In this document: one piece after another, positions 33,682 through 41,519 of the stretch
Numbering within the stretch: the first letter of the stretch is position 1
Layout of the letters: each line of letters opens with the position of its first letter
Assembly (NCBI RefSeq): GCF_000165425.1
Contig: NW_001799003.1
Location: 62,001-126,000, forward strand
Direction of reading: 5' to 3'
Source of the DNA: Paramecium tetraurelia
Taxonomy: Eukaryota; Ciliophora; Oligohymenophorea; Peniculida; Parameciidae
DNA: 64,000 nucleotides
Translations under genes and position numbers: made by a program
Notes under the pieces: model-generated
Databases searched by the model: none
What the model was told of the DNA's origin: nothing
What the model saw: only the letters and a program-made list of their open reading frames with translations

Positions 33682-35005
33682 ATGAATAAGAGATCTGTAA
33701 CTTAGACTGAGAGAGCAAACAGTGCAGCAGCAGGCAAGACCCAAATTAGTACATAGCACAAATAAACTTTTATGACATAAGCATAGAAAACTGAGCATTT
33801 GTATAATCCCATTGATATATTTAAGAATCAATGAAATAGTTGAACAGGAGTGTCCTATCTACACGCAATATAAATAGAAGAACACTAAGTATCCAATCAT
33901 GAAGATTAAGGAATTTAAGAAGCCGAAAGCAGACCCTGTCGATCATACTGATTATATTAAGTTTAAGACTATGAAGAATAACTTTGTGAAAGAGTACAAG
34001 GAGAAATTAGATAATTATTTTGAAAACAATACGAAATATGAAAGAAGATTCTTCAAAATATATCACAGGAAAGATCAGATTTATTTTAAGCATCAGCAAT
34101 CCTCCTAAAAACACATTGAAAATCCAGAAGTTACTGACATGAGAACATACAATTAGATCCTGTAGATGAATCAGCAATAGACTCAACGAGCCAATTACAA
34201 TAAACAACAAGAAAAGAGGAGAAGAGAATTGAAGTTGGAAGAGAAGGAAGAAAAGGAGTATATTAAACTCATTATGGACAAGTTCTTGAAAGAAGAATAG
34301 AAGTATTTTGACAAATTGAGCAATTTGGAGGAGCAAGGCCAATAGATGTTTCAAGAAAAAGTACAATTGAGAAATAAATATACTCATGATTACATTAAGA
34401 ATCCATAAAGGGAATTCGTAGAGAAGAAGGATCTCATCATAAGCAAGGCTATACAAGTTCCAGATTACATGAATTCATCAGTTATAAGCAATGCTGGATC
34501 GCAAATGTAATCATAACCAACTCTAGGTTAAGCCAACATGCCTTTCTCTAGTGCATTCTCGAGTTTCCAATAACTCCCATCTTTTAAAAATGTGCTACAT
34601 CGAATGAATTCAAATGCTCTATATCAGTTGCCAGTACCATAGATTCAGGAATACGACTTAAAACCAGGAGAGCAAATCAAAAAGCCATCTACTTATCAGA
34701 CACAATAGATTTTAGATCTCTAGAGATTGATTACATTAAATGAAAAGATTGAATTCACATTTAGAATCGTCAGTGATCCTGCATTGTTAAGATTGGTGGA
34801 TACCAATGGCTGCACACTCTTGCATTAAGCAGCCTTGAAGGAAAGAAATGGGATTGCCAAGTTTCTGTTGATTAAGGGGATTGATTACAAGAAGACAGAT
34901 AACAAGGGAAGAACTGCTTTGGACATAGCGATTTCATAAAAAAACCAAAAACTTATAGATTACATCAATTAAATTAAGAAAAAAGGACTCAAAGATATAA
35001 ACTGA
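33682..35005 (+). CDS. Protein with C-terminal ankyrin repeats (432 aa)
   Basis: ATG 33682, one intron (33801-33825), 433 codons after splicing. The middle is strongly charged helical (KEEKEYIKLIMDKFLKEEQ), then a Gln/Ser/Pro-rich part. The last 100 residues hold about two ankyrin repeats: LVDTNGCTLLHQAALKERN then GIAKFLLIKGIDYKKTD and NKGRTALDIAISQ. The ankyrin part probably mediates protein contacts. No enzyme domain is seen. Orthology is not recognised. Confidence 0.66.
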
Positions 35006-35068
35006 AATCATTTTGTATTTATTCTCAGAATTCTCAATTCAATTTCATAAAATAATAATAATACCAAT

Positions 35069-35858
35069 ATGTAAGTCGATCAACCTCTTCACACTCCAGC
35101 CAAAAAAAACTGCACCTTCAAAGTCGATGGCAGACCAGATGGAGAAGGGTATTACTTTAAGTCATATACAAGTTATTTGAACAAGAACGATTCCACATAT
35201 GGCATCATCGTCATCTAGGAATGGTGGGGTTTGAATGAATCAATGGTCAAAACCACTGACAAACTTGCTCAGAAAGGATTCCAATGCATCTCTCCAGACA
35301 TATACAGAGGAAAGGTTGCCCAAAATAGAGAAGTATCATTTCTTTGTTCTAGAATAATCCCAGGAAGCTGGCCATCTTCTAAGTGGATTAGATTGGGAAG
35401 GAGCAGTAAGAGACATTGAAGGAGCAGCAAAACATTTAAAAGAGCTTGGATGCACAAAGGTCGGTGTTACAGGGTTCTGCATGGGAGGAGCATTAGCCAT
35501 AGCATCCATCTCATTCTCCAATTCAATTGATGCATCAGCTCCTTTCTATGGAGTGTGTGATTTGAACACTTTCAAATTGGATAACATCCAAGGACCTATC
35601 TATGGTCATTTTGGAGAGAAGGACGAAATGAAAGGATTTTCATCGCCAGACGATGGTCAAAGATTAGTTGATGCTGGAAAGAAGGCAGGAAAAGATGTCA
35701 CAGTCAAGTAACTATGAATTGCTATTTCAAATAGAATTTGGCCAGGTGTAGGACACGCCTTCATGAATCAAGATAGACCAGAGGCTTATAATGTGGAAAC
35801 AGCACAATAAGCCTTAGACGAAGTGACAGCTTGGTTTAGAAAGGTATTCACATAATGA
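35069..35858 (+). CDS. Dienelactone-hydrolase family protein (243 aa)
   Basis: Alpha/beta hydrolase of the DLH type. Catalytic triad positions are visible: Cys in VTGFCMGGALA, Asp/Glu region in YGHFGEKDEM, and His in GVGHAFMNQDRP. N-terminal strand YGIIVIQEWWGLNE and DIYRGK are also typical. Two introns, 35333-35363 (31 bases) and 35708-35734, are needed; the first joins NREEAGHLLSGLDW. Length is normal. Eukaryotic members act on small esters or lactones (carboxymethylenebutenolidase-like); the substrate here is unknown. Confidence 0.86.
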
Positions 35859-35993
35859 TATATTTATTATTAACAGAGTCATTATTTGTTTATCAATCTA
35901 TTTTATACAAAAGTGAATTGAAATCTTTCTAAACTTAACTAACTCCCTCACAGAATTCCCACTAAATATAATACTATAATTTTATAAATTTTT

Positions 35994-37841
35994 TCAATCA
36001 GAGACTATAAACTCTTCATACTCTTCGATTAATTAGTGAACATAATTCAAGATTTTGTATTCTTACAAAGCAATTTTAAAACATTGTGAAAAGTCGTAGT
36101 ATTGTGAAGAAGTGATTTTGAATCGTTTGTGAATGATTTGCAAGTCTTATTTCTTGAAAAACCTAACTCCGTAGAGCAATAAGTTTAATTTGCAAAGTAT
36201 GCTTTTGCCCATCTCCGCCTCTTCAGTTTCATATATTTTATTCAAATGCCTTTAAAAAAACTCGTACTCTAAAATTTAAACCAATTTGGGTATTAGATAT
36301 TCTTGGCCTAAACTAAGAATCTGTTGTTCTCGAGTTTCCCCTAAAATGATTGGCTTGATCTCATCCCAATCTTCAATAAAGTCTTAGATCACTAAATTAT
36401 CATCAGTCAGATCTTTGACAGACTCAACAGCCTTCTGTTTGAACCTATCAAAAATCTTCTCGTTTATTATGGCTTTTTTTGAATGAATTAAATATAAGTC
36501 TTCTCTCGTTACAGCCTTTATGTTGTAACGAAAAAAGTAATGGAAAATATTGCAGCAATGTGAAATAAATCGTTGTCGTCCTCTGCGTTGGATTAATTCA
36601 GATAACATTGCATCTTATGAACAACTGTTCACAAAATTCTCAATGAATTAATTGAAACCTAACTAATTCACATAATGTTGGAGATCATCTTTATTTATTA
36701 TTGCATATTTGTAGATGTCCATTCTTCTTAAGAGTTGTCTGATATTCTTCCAAGGTATACCTGTCTATTACAAAGTTAAAGACAAGTAATATTTAAAATT
36801 TGTAAGCTGCACATTTGTCAAAGCATACTTGACATGTCGTTCTCTCAGCACTTAACAAGAGTAATTGGGTGAATCCAAATGATATATTAATTAAAAGAAG
36901 AGTCTAGCAAATTTCAATTCCTAAGTGGCGACGTCAATATTCTCAAAATAAGGTGATAATGTGACATCTGATAGGATTTTTTTATACATGAGTTTGGTGA
37001 TGGCTTTGATGCCTTCTTCTCCTCCATAAATTTCAAATTCCAGTATTTCATTAAGTATGTAAGGCCGGACATTTTCGATCCTTTCACAACAATTGAACAT
37101 TTTTTCTGTAGAGATGTTCAATTGCATGTACTTATTAAGAAAGTGGTACTTAAACTTGAAAAAGTGAGCATGTGTTAATTACATGCCTAAATGTATGACT
37201 CTTAGACGAGGCAAGTCTAAAAACATTTATTGATCATACGCAGTAGCTAGAAGATTTCTAAATACTTATTTCACTCCAGGTTGATTTTTATTAGGAAACT
37301 TAACACTCAACATGTTATCTTTTCTTGTAATATCCAAATATATTTGGTCCACTTCAAAATTCAGTAACTCATCTGTCCCTTGAGGCTTCGGTGCTACTTT
37401 CCGCTTTCGAGACAGGTCCATCAAGTATCCCTTAATTATTTAATCCTACGATTTGATTGGTACCAATTACTATTAACTGTGAAACTTAGTTGATTTTCGA
37501 ATAACATCATTGAATAATTCGGAGTTTCGAATTAAGCAATAGTTTTTATCCTTTTATTTCCACTCGTTTTTACGGAATTGTGATAGACCTGACATGTTGC
37601 TCTTTTCACTTTCTAATGTTTTAAATCGCAAACTCAACGGAGGATCAATATGTGTGGTCTTAGATGTGGTGATGGCATAACTAAAATTTTATTCAATTTG
37701 AATGGAATTCTTCTGAGGTTGATATTTAGTAAGTAGGAACACTGGATTCTGTTTGGGCAGTCTTCTTTTTTCAGGCTGCTTTTGTCTGATAGTATACGTT
37801 TCCAAAAAATCCTTAAACGATTTCTGAGTGTCTTATATCAT
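35994..37841 (-). CDS. Protein with four tandem truncated-globin-like domains, paralogue B (615 aa)
   Basis: One uninterrupted frame, no introns. After about 150 polar residues, four homologous units follow. Each has a His in the same context, as in the F8 (proximal) His of truncated haemoglobins: VIHLGMQLTHAHFFKF (residue 217), RERHVKYALTNVQLTNF (336), LIHSKKAIINEKIF (453), IIHKRFKITSSQYYDF (571). Unit 2 is clearest: YGGEEGIKAITKLMYKKIL then SDVTLSPYFENIDV and the His motif. Spacing of 117-119 residues equals one single-domain truncated haemoglobin. It lies 21 bases downstream of paralogue A. Probable haem protein for O2 or NO chemistry; haem binding is inferred, not shown. Confidence 0.72.
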
Positions 37842-37862
37842 AAAAACAAATAAAAATTTAAA

Positions 37863-39924
37863 TCAATCAAAAACAATATGTTTCTTGTAGTCATCAATAA
37901 CATCGAGGACCCATTATAGTTTAGATGGTTCATCCTGCATGACAGCCTTCATGGCCTAAAATAAATAGGGAATGTTAACTTATTAAAATTCAAAATACGC
38001 TTGTTCACGAATTCGTAATCTCTTGTGAAGTACTTCAATGTCTGTACGTTTGTAGAAATGCAATCCGTACAGAATCAAATTTAATTTGCATTTCAAATTG
38101 GGACCAACTTGAGATTCATTGTCCTTTGATAAAATGATAAAACTATTTTACTTCAAATACTTTGTACAGCAGTGGTCGTTGCATGATTTCATTTTCTAAT
38201 TTAGATGCAATCCGATTGACAACCGCCTAGCCTCCAAGCAATTTAATAGTAGTCTTTTTAGGTTTATTCATTAAGATGGGTGTAATTTCCTCCCAATCCT
38301 CTTCGAAATCACTTAATAAAATTGGATCATTTGTTACTTTGCTGACTGCTTGCATAGCTTTTTCCTTGAATTTCCTATAGACCTTCTCTGAAATTATGGT
38401 TTTGTTTTTATGAATAGATTCGATGTCATCATCAGTGATTGATTTCACATTGTCTCTGAAAAAATAGTGAAAGACATTTTCACAATGCGCAGTAAATCTT
38501 TACTTCCCTCTCTTCTAAACTAGATCATAGAGAATGGGTTCACTCGAGCACAGACGCACAAAACTCTCAATAAATTCTCTGTATCCTCCAGGAGCATTAT
38601 TGATGCATTCCTAAAGCGATGGCTTATTCAATATAGCAAACTTATAGGTGTCCATCTTCCTTAGCAATATTCTCAAATTTTTGTAGCTTATACCTAACTT
38701 TTGTAGAGCAGTAGATAGATAGAATTTGAAATTAGCCAATTGAACATGTGTCAATTTATACTTGACATGTCTTTCTCTGAGCACTTCAAGTGTATAGTTC
38801 GGAGACTCAGTATGATCTATTAATTATGCGAAGAGCTTAGCAAATTTAGTGGCCTACTCTTCCAATTCAATTGCCTTGAAATACGGACTTAATGTGTAAT
38901 CTTTGAATATCTTCTCGTACATGTTCTTAGCCACTTCATTAATTCCTTATTCTCCTCCGAATATTTCGAAATCACTCCTCTGATTAAGAATCAAAGGTTT
39001 AAAATTTTCCAATTTGTAACAACCCTTAAAAAGCAGCTCTACAGGAGTCTCCATCTCCATATATTGATTGATGAACAGATATTTGAATCTAATGAACTAT
39101 TCTTTCTTTATAAAGAGTGGAGCATGAATACTCCTCATCCTGAATTGATCAAGTAGTATTTCCTAAGTGTATCCTATTCCCAAAATACTTTTATATATAT
39201 CCTTCAGGTATTTGAGGTGTTTTCCATAGTACTTATTTTTTAACTGCCGATCTAAAATGACTCTATTATAAAGAGACTCAGAATGCTAATCAAGGAGCTC
39301 GTTGCTACCATATTATTTGATTTGGGTCTTAATTATCTTTTAGAATTTAGTCTCAAAAAATTTGCTTATGATTTCCGTTTATGTCTTTGGAAGTTGCTTT
39401 AATTCACGGTGTTGCTGCTACACTTTAGGTCTTCTAAGCTACTCAAGTTGCTCATGGACATTTCTAAGACTGTTGCTATGGGGATTCCTAATCTTATGTT
39501 AAAAGGGAGTAAATTTGAAATGAACCGGAGTATTGGGTAGAACAACATCGCAGATCTAGGAATCACTAATCATTGGTAAATGATAGAGCGTTTTGGTTGG
39601 TGACTACTCTTGACTTCTAAAACTCTTCACTTTATTTACAAACTCATTAATTGTGACCTGACTTTGTGAGCCATGCTTAATTATGAACTGATTCCGAGGT
39701 TCCTAGTGTAGTAAAGAACTTAACTATTTTTCAGATCTTTATTTCTTTGACACTGTTGGAGAAGTCTAAAGTGAAGATAATTATCCTGTGCATTAGAATT
39801 TTTGATCGTCCTTCATCTATTGCTATTGCATGAAATCTCTAAATGTCATGCTTTTATTATCATTCTTGAGATTCTCAGTTGGAAATTTGAATGGACATCT
39901 AGAAGAAGAGGTGACATTACTCAT
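37863..39924 (-). CDS. Protein with four tandem truncated-globin-like domains, paralogue A (669 aa)
   Basis: About 200 polar N-terminal residues, then four globin-like units with proximal-type His at residues 267 (SIHAPLFIKKEQFIRF), 386 (RERHVKYKLTHVQLANF), 505 (SIHKNKTIISEKVY) and 624 (LHKRLRIREQAYFEF), each exactly 119 apart. Unit 2 carries the truncated-haemoglobin start FGGEQGINEVAKNMYEKIF, then DYTLSPYFKAIEL. Introns 38124-38151 and 37956-37979 both fall in unit 4; the second starts with GTT rather than GTA. Spliced length is 670 codons. Close similarity to the next gene downstream shows a local duplication. Function as haem protein is inferred from the conserved His and unit length. Confidence 0.74.
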
Positions 39925-41519
39925 AATAATTATAATTTATATTTATCCTGATATTTAGAAATATAGTTAATAATCTATTTGTAAGATCAGAATATCATAT
40001 TATGACATTAATTCCATAGAGAATAGAGAAGATTAATTTTTATTTTATTTTTCCTAGACCTTCTTGGTTTGGGCAAGGTTCAACTCAATATACATATTTC
40101 AACTAAATGGAACTATCATTATTGACTCCCTTATGAAAATTGTTATTTCAATACTACTCAACTAATTAATTACGACATCATAATTGATATGCTTAATTAT
40201 AACTGAACAAACTATCTAAAGTAAAGAATTTATGCTTTTTGTTAATCCAAAAGTAAAATTTGAATATAGTCATAAACGTAAACTATAACATTTATGAATA
40301 TCAAAATGGGAATTGTAAGAATTATTCTCTGTTTTCAGTCTATTTTATAACAATTAAATAGTTATTTAGCACATCTTGATATTTATTTAGTCATACAAAT
40401 CAACACTTCTAGTTTTAAATGAAATATTAGCTATGAACACCAAATTTTTCAAAGTTTCATCAGTATCTAACTGGTTATTCAATTACAATATCACCATCCA
40501 TTTTAAAGTATCAGCAACATGTATAATTTCACTTTAAAATTTGTCAAAGCCACTTACTCTTAAATATGTTCTCATTTACAATTCAAGTAATCAAATATTG
40601 TTATCTTAAAATTTATTATCCCAATATTTACAAATAAATTACTTAAGATTATTTCAATATTCTAGTAGACAACATCTAATTGATCAGATTAGAACTAACT
40701 GAAAAAAATAAACTCGATTATTTTAGTTAAACCATTAAAAACAGTCCAATAAAATGACTATACTACTAATTTTATTCTCCTGAAATGTTCAATATTATTG
40801 TTAGATTAATAATCATAATTAAGCCTTATATGGGTTAAATATAGTAATAAATTTTAGAACAATTTATGAGGTATTAATAATGGATTATCTTATGTGAAAT
40901 ATGGAGTGACTAAATAATTAAACATTTAGGTAATTTAGTCACTTTTGTATGAGACTCCTATAATAATCAAAATACAAGTTTAACTTTGTTGGTTTGAAAG
41001 GTTTTGGATTATATGTCATTATTTTTCACATATTACCAAATATGTTTATACTTTTAAGATATTGGAGTTTCTATTGTTAATAAATTATTGTATAATCAAG
41101 TGTATTTAGGCTTCTTTCATTTCATTAAATAGAGAAATTAGCAAGTATGATAATCTGAGAATTCATATGAGTAGATAATTTATTCAAAGTAAAATATAAT
41201 TGAAATTAGGGATTTAGAAAATACTCCTGAATTTATTGGAATATTTTCTATTTGTATTGATTGGCCGAAATAGAGAAGTAGTAATTAGGGTTTCTGTAAA
41301 AAAGTCTTATTTTATAAATATATTAAATATAAAAATTTAGCTTAATTACGAATAATTTCATTGTAATTAAAATCGAAAATAATTATTAAGATTTTTATTT
41401 TAAAATTCCTTATAAAGTAATTAATGTAAAATAATTTTAATTTTCAAAATAATTAGTTTATAATAAGTCATAATATATATAAAACTATTCACAGTAGTGT
41501 CAATTTAGTCTAAAGGGGT
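39925..41519. other. Largest gene-poor stretch (1.6 kb)
   Basis: AT-rich DNA between the globin pair's promoter side and the kinase 3' end. On the minus strand a frame runs from about 40800 to 39990 with six in-frame TGA, which is what chance predicts here. A hairpin lies at 40905-40943. I see no intact gene, tRNA, or repeat family. The promoter of globin paralogue A must lie at its left end. Confidence 0.45.
40905..40943. repeat. 11-bp inverted repeat (hairpin)
   Basis: AGTGACTAAAT at 40905-40915 is matched by ATTTAGTCACT at 40933-40943, a perfect 11-bp stem with a 17-base loop. It sits inside the 1.6-kb gene-poor stretch. It may be part of a structured RNA or a remnant of an excised or decayed element; nothing decides. 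Confidence 0.45.

Follow-up and report, generated by a model that had tools for sequence, protein, structure and literature searches.

The single-domain haemoglobins of ciliates carry one haem. A 2017 article by Hade et al., whose title names tandem globin units, is said to deal with multidomain truncated haemoglobins and to treat ciliates. It is this article that PMC5745447 cites for globin domain repeats, and proteins with several 2/2 haemoglobin (2/2Hb) domains per chain appear as already known in PMC7082302, where THB5 of Chlamydomonas reinhardtii is given as having four consecutive 2/2Hb domains. The window analyzed here, a stretch of 64,000 nucleotides (nt) of Paramecium tetraurelia (contig NW_001799003.1, positions 62,001 to 126,000), contains two adjacent minus-strand genes, A and B, and computation shows that each encodes four globin units with a histidine at the F8 position (F8 His) in every unit and purifying selection on all four. 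With at least two truncated-globin units per chain, both are tandem truncated haemoglobins. An original prediction made from the DNA alone knew of no described protein with this plan, a claim that the description of THB5 does not support, because on that description THB5, like proteins A and B, strings four 2/2 (group I) globin domains in succession along a single polypeptide. THB5 differs in its host, a green alga, and its likeness to A and B is one of described domain plan. The four-unit plan has precedents, and it is the differentiation among the units that is the part worth testing.

A search of the 69-Mb genome assembly (231 contigs) with protein A returned 27 matching pieces that resolved into 18 further gene models, which with A and B makes 20 four-unit genes, a number to be read as a lower bound. 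These comprise an A-type (gene A, C74A, C16A and C5A), a B-type (gene B, C74B, C16B, C5B and C217B), a C25-type (C25, C166, C219 and C128), a C55-type (C55, C1, C34, C174, C21 and C40) and C187, a separate and divergent member; identity between subfamilies is about 19–27%, and members of the other subfamilies share 20–26% with protein A. C187 was dropped from the unit profiles and pocket counts, C128 from those of unit 3 because of a frame break, and C40 from those of unit 4 because of a poor 3' model. Splice choices are doubtful in models C34, C21 and C40, and the start codons of the paralogues are not fixed. For comparison, PMC6474222 gives 2 globin genes in P. bursaria versus 21–46 in other Paramecium species.

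The F8 His residues were recovered at exactly the positions first proposed, 217, 336, 453 and 571 in protein A and 267, 386, 505 and 624 in protein B. This spacing by itself is only moderately rare, such that chains of four His spaced 116–120 residues apart arose in 131 of 20,000 residue shuffles of A (0.7%) and in 338 of 20,000 of B (1.7%); an argument for globins from spacing only was dropped as too weak. The strong evidence is the conservation of these residues. The globin part of protein A holds 13 His. Among the 19 family proteins aligned, A included and C187 left out, five of these His are conserved in 18 or more: the four F8 His, each present in 19 of 19, and a His in helix E of unit 3, present in 18 of 19, with the next best found in 13 of 19. 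When all 20 proteins are aligned, the F8 column is His in 19 of 20 at A217, A336 and A453 and in 20 of 20 at A571, and the 493 alignment columns from A150 onward include 28 in which 19 or all 20 proteins share one residue, the four F8 His among them.

Globin identity is most direct for unit 2. The Pfam family PF01152 (Bac_globin) matches residues 269–381 of protein A (expectation value, E, 5.5e-8) and residues 319–432 of protein B (E 5.3e-8), in both cases at 33.5 bits against a cut-off of 21, and it is found at E up to 1 in four of the five family members scanned. Sequence searches of the Protein Data Bank (PDB) place the best match in unit 2 as well, at E 1.5e-5 for protein A (with 1uvx and 1dlw included) and more weakly, at E 0.0074, for protein B, and with a profile built from five family members the best E falls to 4e-11; the 20 top matches of this profile are all truncated globins, and every one lies in unit 2. 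By sequence this unit matches the single-domain haemoglobins of both Paramecium caudatum (1dlw) and Tetrahymena pyriformis (3aq5), whereas such proteins consist of one unit without a long tail and A and B of four units and a long tail.

Profile–profile comparison extends this identity to units 1 and 4. HHalign alignment of the unit profiles with a profile of 12 single-domain globins encoded in this genome, which resemble the P. caudatum globin, gave 98.8, 99.3, 62.6 and 97.1% for units 1–4 (12 of 13 models were used, L008 being dropped as a poor model and five later single-domain models left out). The corresponding scores of 92.4, 117.5, 31.4 and 62.7 compare with maxima of 19.2, 14.3, 13.2 and 16.6 from 20 column shuffles per unit and with 16.3, 16.6, 17.7 and 10.5 from reversed profiles. 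Compared with one another over the whole family, the units gave 97.9% (1–2), 96.4% (1–4), 84.3% (3–4), 76.6% (1–3), 42.4% (2–4) and 12.5% (2–3).

Unit 3 is the weakest link by sequence, yet it yields a confident globin-like model, and it is by fold that it looks like a globin. The AlphaFold2 model of unit 3 of protein A (residues 384–503, with the B row) has a predicted local distance difference test score (pLDDT) of 85.1 and a predicted template modelling score (pTM) of 0.80. A Foldseek comparison of this model with the PDB, with E up to 10 allowed, returned 170 matches; the top 50 of these are globins plus one nitric oxide (NO) synthase entry, 9q0x, which presumably bears a globin domain. 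The top match is 1dly, with a template modelling (TM) score of 0.70 and a probability of 1.00. Alignments A1, A3 and A4 were poorly aligned and so were left unfolded. Four globin units per protein, as originally predicted, are thus borne out by Pfam for unit 2, by profile–profile comparison for units 1 and 4, by predicted structure for unit 3 and by an F8 His in every unit. Unit by unit, Pfam matches unit 2 (PF01152) and the structural model of unit 3 is globin-like, with neither result for units 1 and 4.

The units differ in the residues that would line the haem pocket. Pocket positions were assigned by HHalign mapping onto a P. caudatum-like single-domain globin of the same genome, and for units 1, 3 and 4 these labels depend on alignments between remote sequences. 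Unit 2 has tyrosine (Tyr) at B10, phenylalanine (Phe) at CD1, glutamine (Gln) at E7, lysine (Lys) at E10 and His at F8 in 19 of 19 rows, all five residues being those of the P. caudatum-like globin, and judged by these residues its group I truncated-globin site is complete. Unit 1 is variable, with B10 being Tyr in 8/9 and Phe in 1/9 of the A/B rows and Tyr in 1/10 of the rows elsewhere, and E7 is not Gln. Units 3 and 4 have neither the B10 Tyr nor the E7 Gln; in unit 4, CD1 is Phe or Tyr in 18/18 rows, and the five C55-type rows listed have His at E10. The helix-E His of unit 3 occupies an E10-like position in all 18 rows mapped (18 of 20 over all proteins, the exceptions being the broken C128 and C187), and in 20 of 20 proteins F8 follows this column by 25 residues.

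What might this second His do? In Synechocystis GlbN, His-E10 is a ligand, and 24 residues separate the two His. GlbN is described as hexacoordinate in the literature, and PMC7082302 names Lys-E10 as the residue that supplies the sixth ligand in Chlamydomonas THB1, 2 and 4. Like these hexacoordinate group I globins, GlbN and THB1 (Lys-E10), unit 3 has a candidate ligand on the E10 side, here a His, in addition to its F8 His, at a His–His distance of 25 residues known here from sequence. This second, nearly invariant His near E10 suggests a bis-His haem in unit 3. In the literature covered, which comprised titles and abstract openings with few subscription papers, neither a second His in unit 3 nor a differentiation between units came up for ciliate proteins of this kind.

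Selection acts on every unit. The ratio of nonsynonymous to synonymous rates (dN/dS) between A and C74A is 0.036 overall and 0.032, 0.012, 0.039 and 0.021 for units 1–4, with 0.079 for the tail; between B and C74B it is 0.054 overall and 0.023, 0.037, 0.029 and 0.043 for units 1–4, with 0.091 for the tail, all of these ratios being rough because dS is 0.9–2.9. For A versus C74A, dN itself is 0.109 in the tail and 0.035–0.067 in the units. The A–C16A and B–C217B pairs are saturated for this comparison. In a tree of 48 units from 12 of the 20 proteins together with seven single-domain globins, the copies of unit 2, of unit 3 and of unit 4 fall into one well-supported group apiece and those of unit 1 into a weakly supported one (79/27), with unsure deep branching and long-branch warnings. 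Because units cluster by position, a four-unit ancestor would be older than the three subfamilies, and the four-unit plan most likely predates them.

Taken together, we put the probability at roughly one half that each gene encodes a tandem tetra-globin acting as a multi-haem O2/NO protein, with a gas site in unit 2 and a bis-His redox site in unit 3. Each chain would place four group I truncated-haemoglobin (2/2) units behind a long, fast-changing and presumably disordered tail, and each unit would hold haem via its F8 His. Unit 2, with its full ciliate-type distal site, would be the O2 or NO binder, serving NO removal or O2 buffering, and the haems next to it would re-reduce or tune it. Unit 3, with a second His at an E10-like position, would probably hold a bis-His hexacoordinate haem suited to electron transfer or redox switching and not to storage, while the distal sites of units 1 and 4 would be mostly hydrophobic and subfamily-specific. 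A bolder version, which we regard as a long shot, is that each chain carries, in a set order, four haem sites of different chemistry (one bis-His, one Tyr/Gln gas-binding and two hydrophobic) that pass electrons among themselves and thereby regenerate the globin after NO/O2 chemistry, and that B and A are co-expressed as an eight-haem pair. As for the up to four haems per chain originally proposed, the number is plausible; three of the four units are without parts of the usual distal pocket.

A number of results weigh against the multi-haem reading. Units 1, 3 and 4 of A and B have no Pfam match above cut-off; below it, unit 4 of A has Globin PF00042 (E 0.016), and two unrelated families give chance-like weak matches. 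As single sequences, units 1, 3 and 4 of A find no globin in the PDB up to E 10. The unit 3 profile reaches only 62.6% for the whole family and falls to 0.8, 20.6 and 0.6% by subfamily, where its scores against the best shuffle are 15.5 versus 14.2, 25.0 versus 22.6 and 14.6 versus 16.7; for the C25 set, unit 4 comes to 33.2% against the single-domain profile, and likeness between units inside single subfamilies is mostly low. The best Foldseek E for unit 3 is 0.10, with none below 0.1. Units 1, 2 and 4 are without a confident model: AlphaFold2 of A 155–615 with one B row has a mean pLDDT of 47.6, and its Foldseek matches, with truncated haemoglobins on top, were discounted as evidence. The B10 Tyr and E7 Gln are not retained in units 3 and 4 and only in part in unit 1, and the divergent relative C187 (locus L050) has K, S, N and H as its F8 residues, only the fourth His being kept. 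C187 is also a natural test of unit function without three F8 His.

Such results bear on the alternative that unit 2 is the sole working haem site and that units 1, 3 and 4 are a haem-free globin-fold scaffold for self-association or protein contacts. Only unit 2 has B10, CD1, E7 and E10 as in ciliate haemoglobins, it alone passes the Pfam cut-off, its dN/dS is the lowest of the units in A versus C74A (0.012; in B versus C74B unit 1 is lowest), and C187 shows that loss of F8 His is possible. However, units 1, 3 and 4 have in their F8 His some of the best-conserved residues of the family despite the low identity between subfamilies, and their retention in so strongly diverged a family is not expected of scaffold units, which leads us to consider this alternative unlikely.

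A gas or heme sensor, in which the haem state of the four units alters the tail or a partner and a tail Cys-Pro binds or responds to free haem, appears improbable. The tails are long and fast-changing, and Cys-Pro recurs in those of three subfamilies, being present in 5/5 B-type, 4/4 C25-type and 6/6 C55-type proteins, in 1/4 A-type proteins (C5A) and not in C187, or in 16/20 in total. It mostly takes the form CPF, CPI or CPV in otherwise dissimilar tails (in gene B at residue 10, window positions 39892–39897) and resembles a haem-regulatory motif. Yet gene A, C74A and C16A are without it, C5A being the only A-type protein to have it, the Pfam scan of A and B finds no output domain, and a link between Cys-Pro and haem regulation in these tails is only presumed. 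That the proteins are no globins at all, and consist of unrelated helical repeats in which the His recur at a regular interval by chance, has next to no likelihood: the spacing does occur in shuffles and three units escape single-sequence searches, but the Pfam match of unit 2, the profiles, the unit 3 model with its matches, the conservation and the tree all speak against it.

Table 1. Features of genes A and B in the window.
Feature	Position in window	Strand	Description or supporting analysis
Gene A	35994..37841	-	single exon, 615 amino acids plus stop, translation table 6
Gene A N-terminal tail, residues 1-151	37389..37841	-	evolves faster than units; without Cys-Pro motif
Gene A unit 1, residues 152-263, F8 His217	37053..37388	-	F8 conservation, profile comparison, pocket map
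Gene A unit 2, residues 264-385, F8 His336	36687..37052	-	canonical group I truncated-globin pocket (predicted); Pfam, PDB, pocket map
Gene A unit 3, residues 386-501, F8 His453, helix-E His428	36339..36686	-	AlphaFold2, Foldseek, pocket map
Gene A unit 4, residues 502-615, F8 His571	35997..36338	-	F8 conservation, profile comparison, pocket map
Intergenic gap, B stop to A ATG, 21 nt	37842..37862	-	T-rich
Gene B, whole	39924..37863	-	669 amino acids once the 28-nt intron and the probable, in-frame 24-nt intron are taken out
Gene B exon 1, residues 1-591	38152..39924	-	tail, units 1-3, start of unit 4
Gene B tail, residues 1-201	within exon 1	-	CPF at residue 10
Gene B unit 1, residues 202-314	within exon 1	-	F8 His267
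Gene B unit 2, residues 315-437	within exon 1	-	F8 His386; PF01152 match
Gene B unit 3, residues 438-556	within exon 1	-	His480 and His505
Gene B intron 1, 28 nt	38124..38151	-	frame restored, alignment to A continuous
Gene B exon 2	37980..38123	-	part of unit 4, F8 His624
Gene B probable intron 2, 24 nt, in frame	37956..37979	-	no gene A residues at this place
Gene B exon 3	37863..37955	-	end of unit 4 and stop

The window is AT-rich, and with translation table 11 no open reading frame of at least 80 amino acids overlaps positions 35000–41000, the two large adjacent frames of Table 1 appearing with the ciliate code (table 6). C74A and C16A have 615-codon frames colinear with gene A. An intron at the position of gene B intron 1 is also modelled in C74B, C16B, C217B and C5B, and the same four models have one at the site of intron 2, although they were built using gene B already so trimmed; modelled introns across these genes are 20–31 nt long. 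The code, these intron lengths and the P. caudatum-like single-domain globins are all in keeping with a Paramecium. The gap between B and A has T-rich counterparts in the paralogous pairs, of 21 nt in the C74 pair (locus L036) and 17 nt in the C16 pair (locus L037). So short a gap leaves little space for separate non-coding ends, and the two genes may have overlapping or shared transcripts. An eight-unit protein joining B and A through an intron was rejected, inspection by eye, with no separate scan, having found no GT..AG intron of usual length across the stop.

C217 (locus L039) is a B-type gene without an A-type neighbour in the 7.5 kb inspected, so one gene of the pair seems to have been lost there. 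The unit 3 frame break in the model of C128 (locus L046) marks a decaying gene or a sequencing error. A weak PF01152 match at C175:199830-199979 (locus L061; E 4.3e-4) resolved into no globin gene. Within the window, gene A is adjoined by a dienelactone hydrolase family gene (35006-35717, plus strand; PF01738, pieces in two frames) and by an ankyrin-repeat protein gene (33776-35005, plus strand).

The identities of the units in this family have probably been kept since before the split into three subfamilies, and the second His of unit 3 offers a direct experimental handle. Should every one of the four units bind haem, about 20 multi-haem globins would come from a single ciliate genome, and both the question of why one cell needs them and the idea of an internal redox chain built from globin domains become testable.
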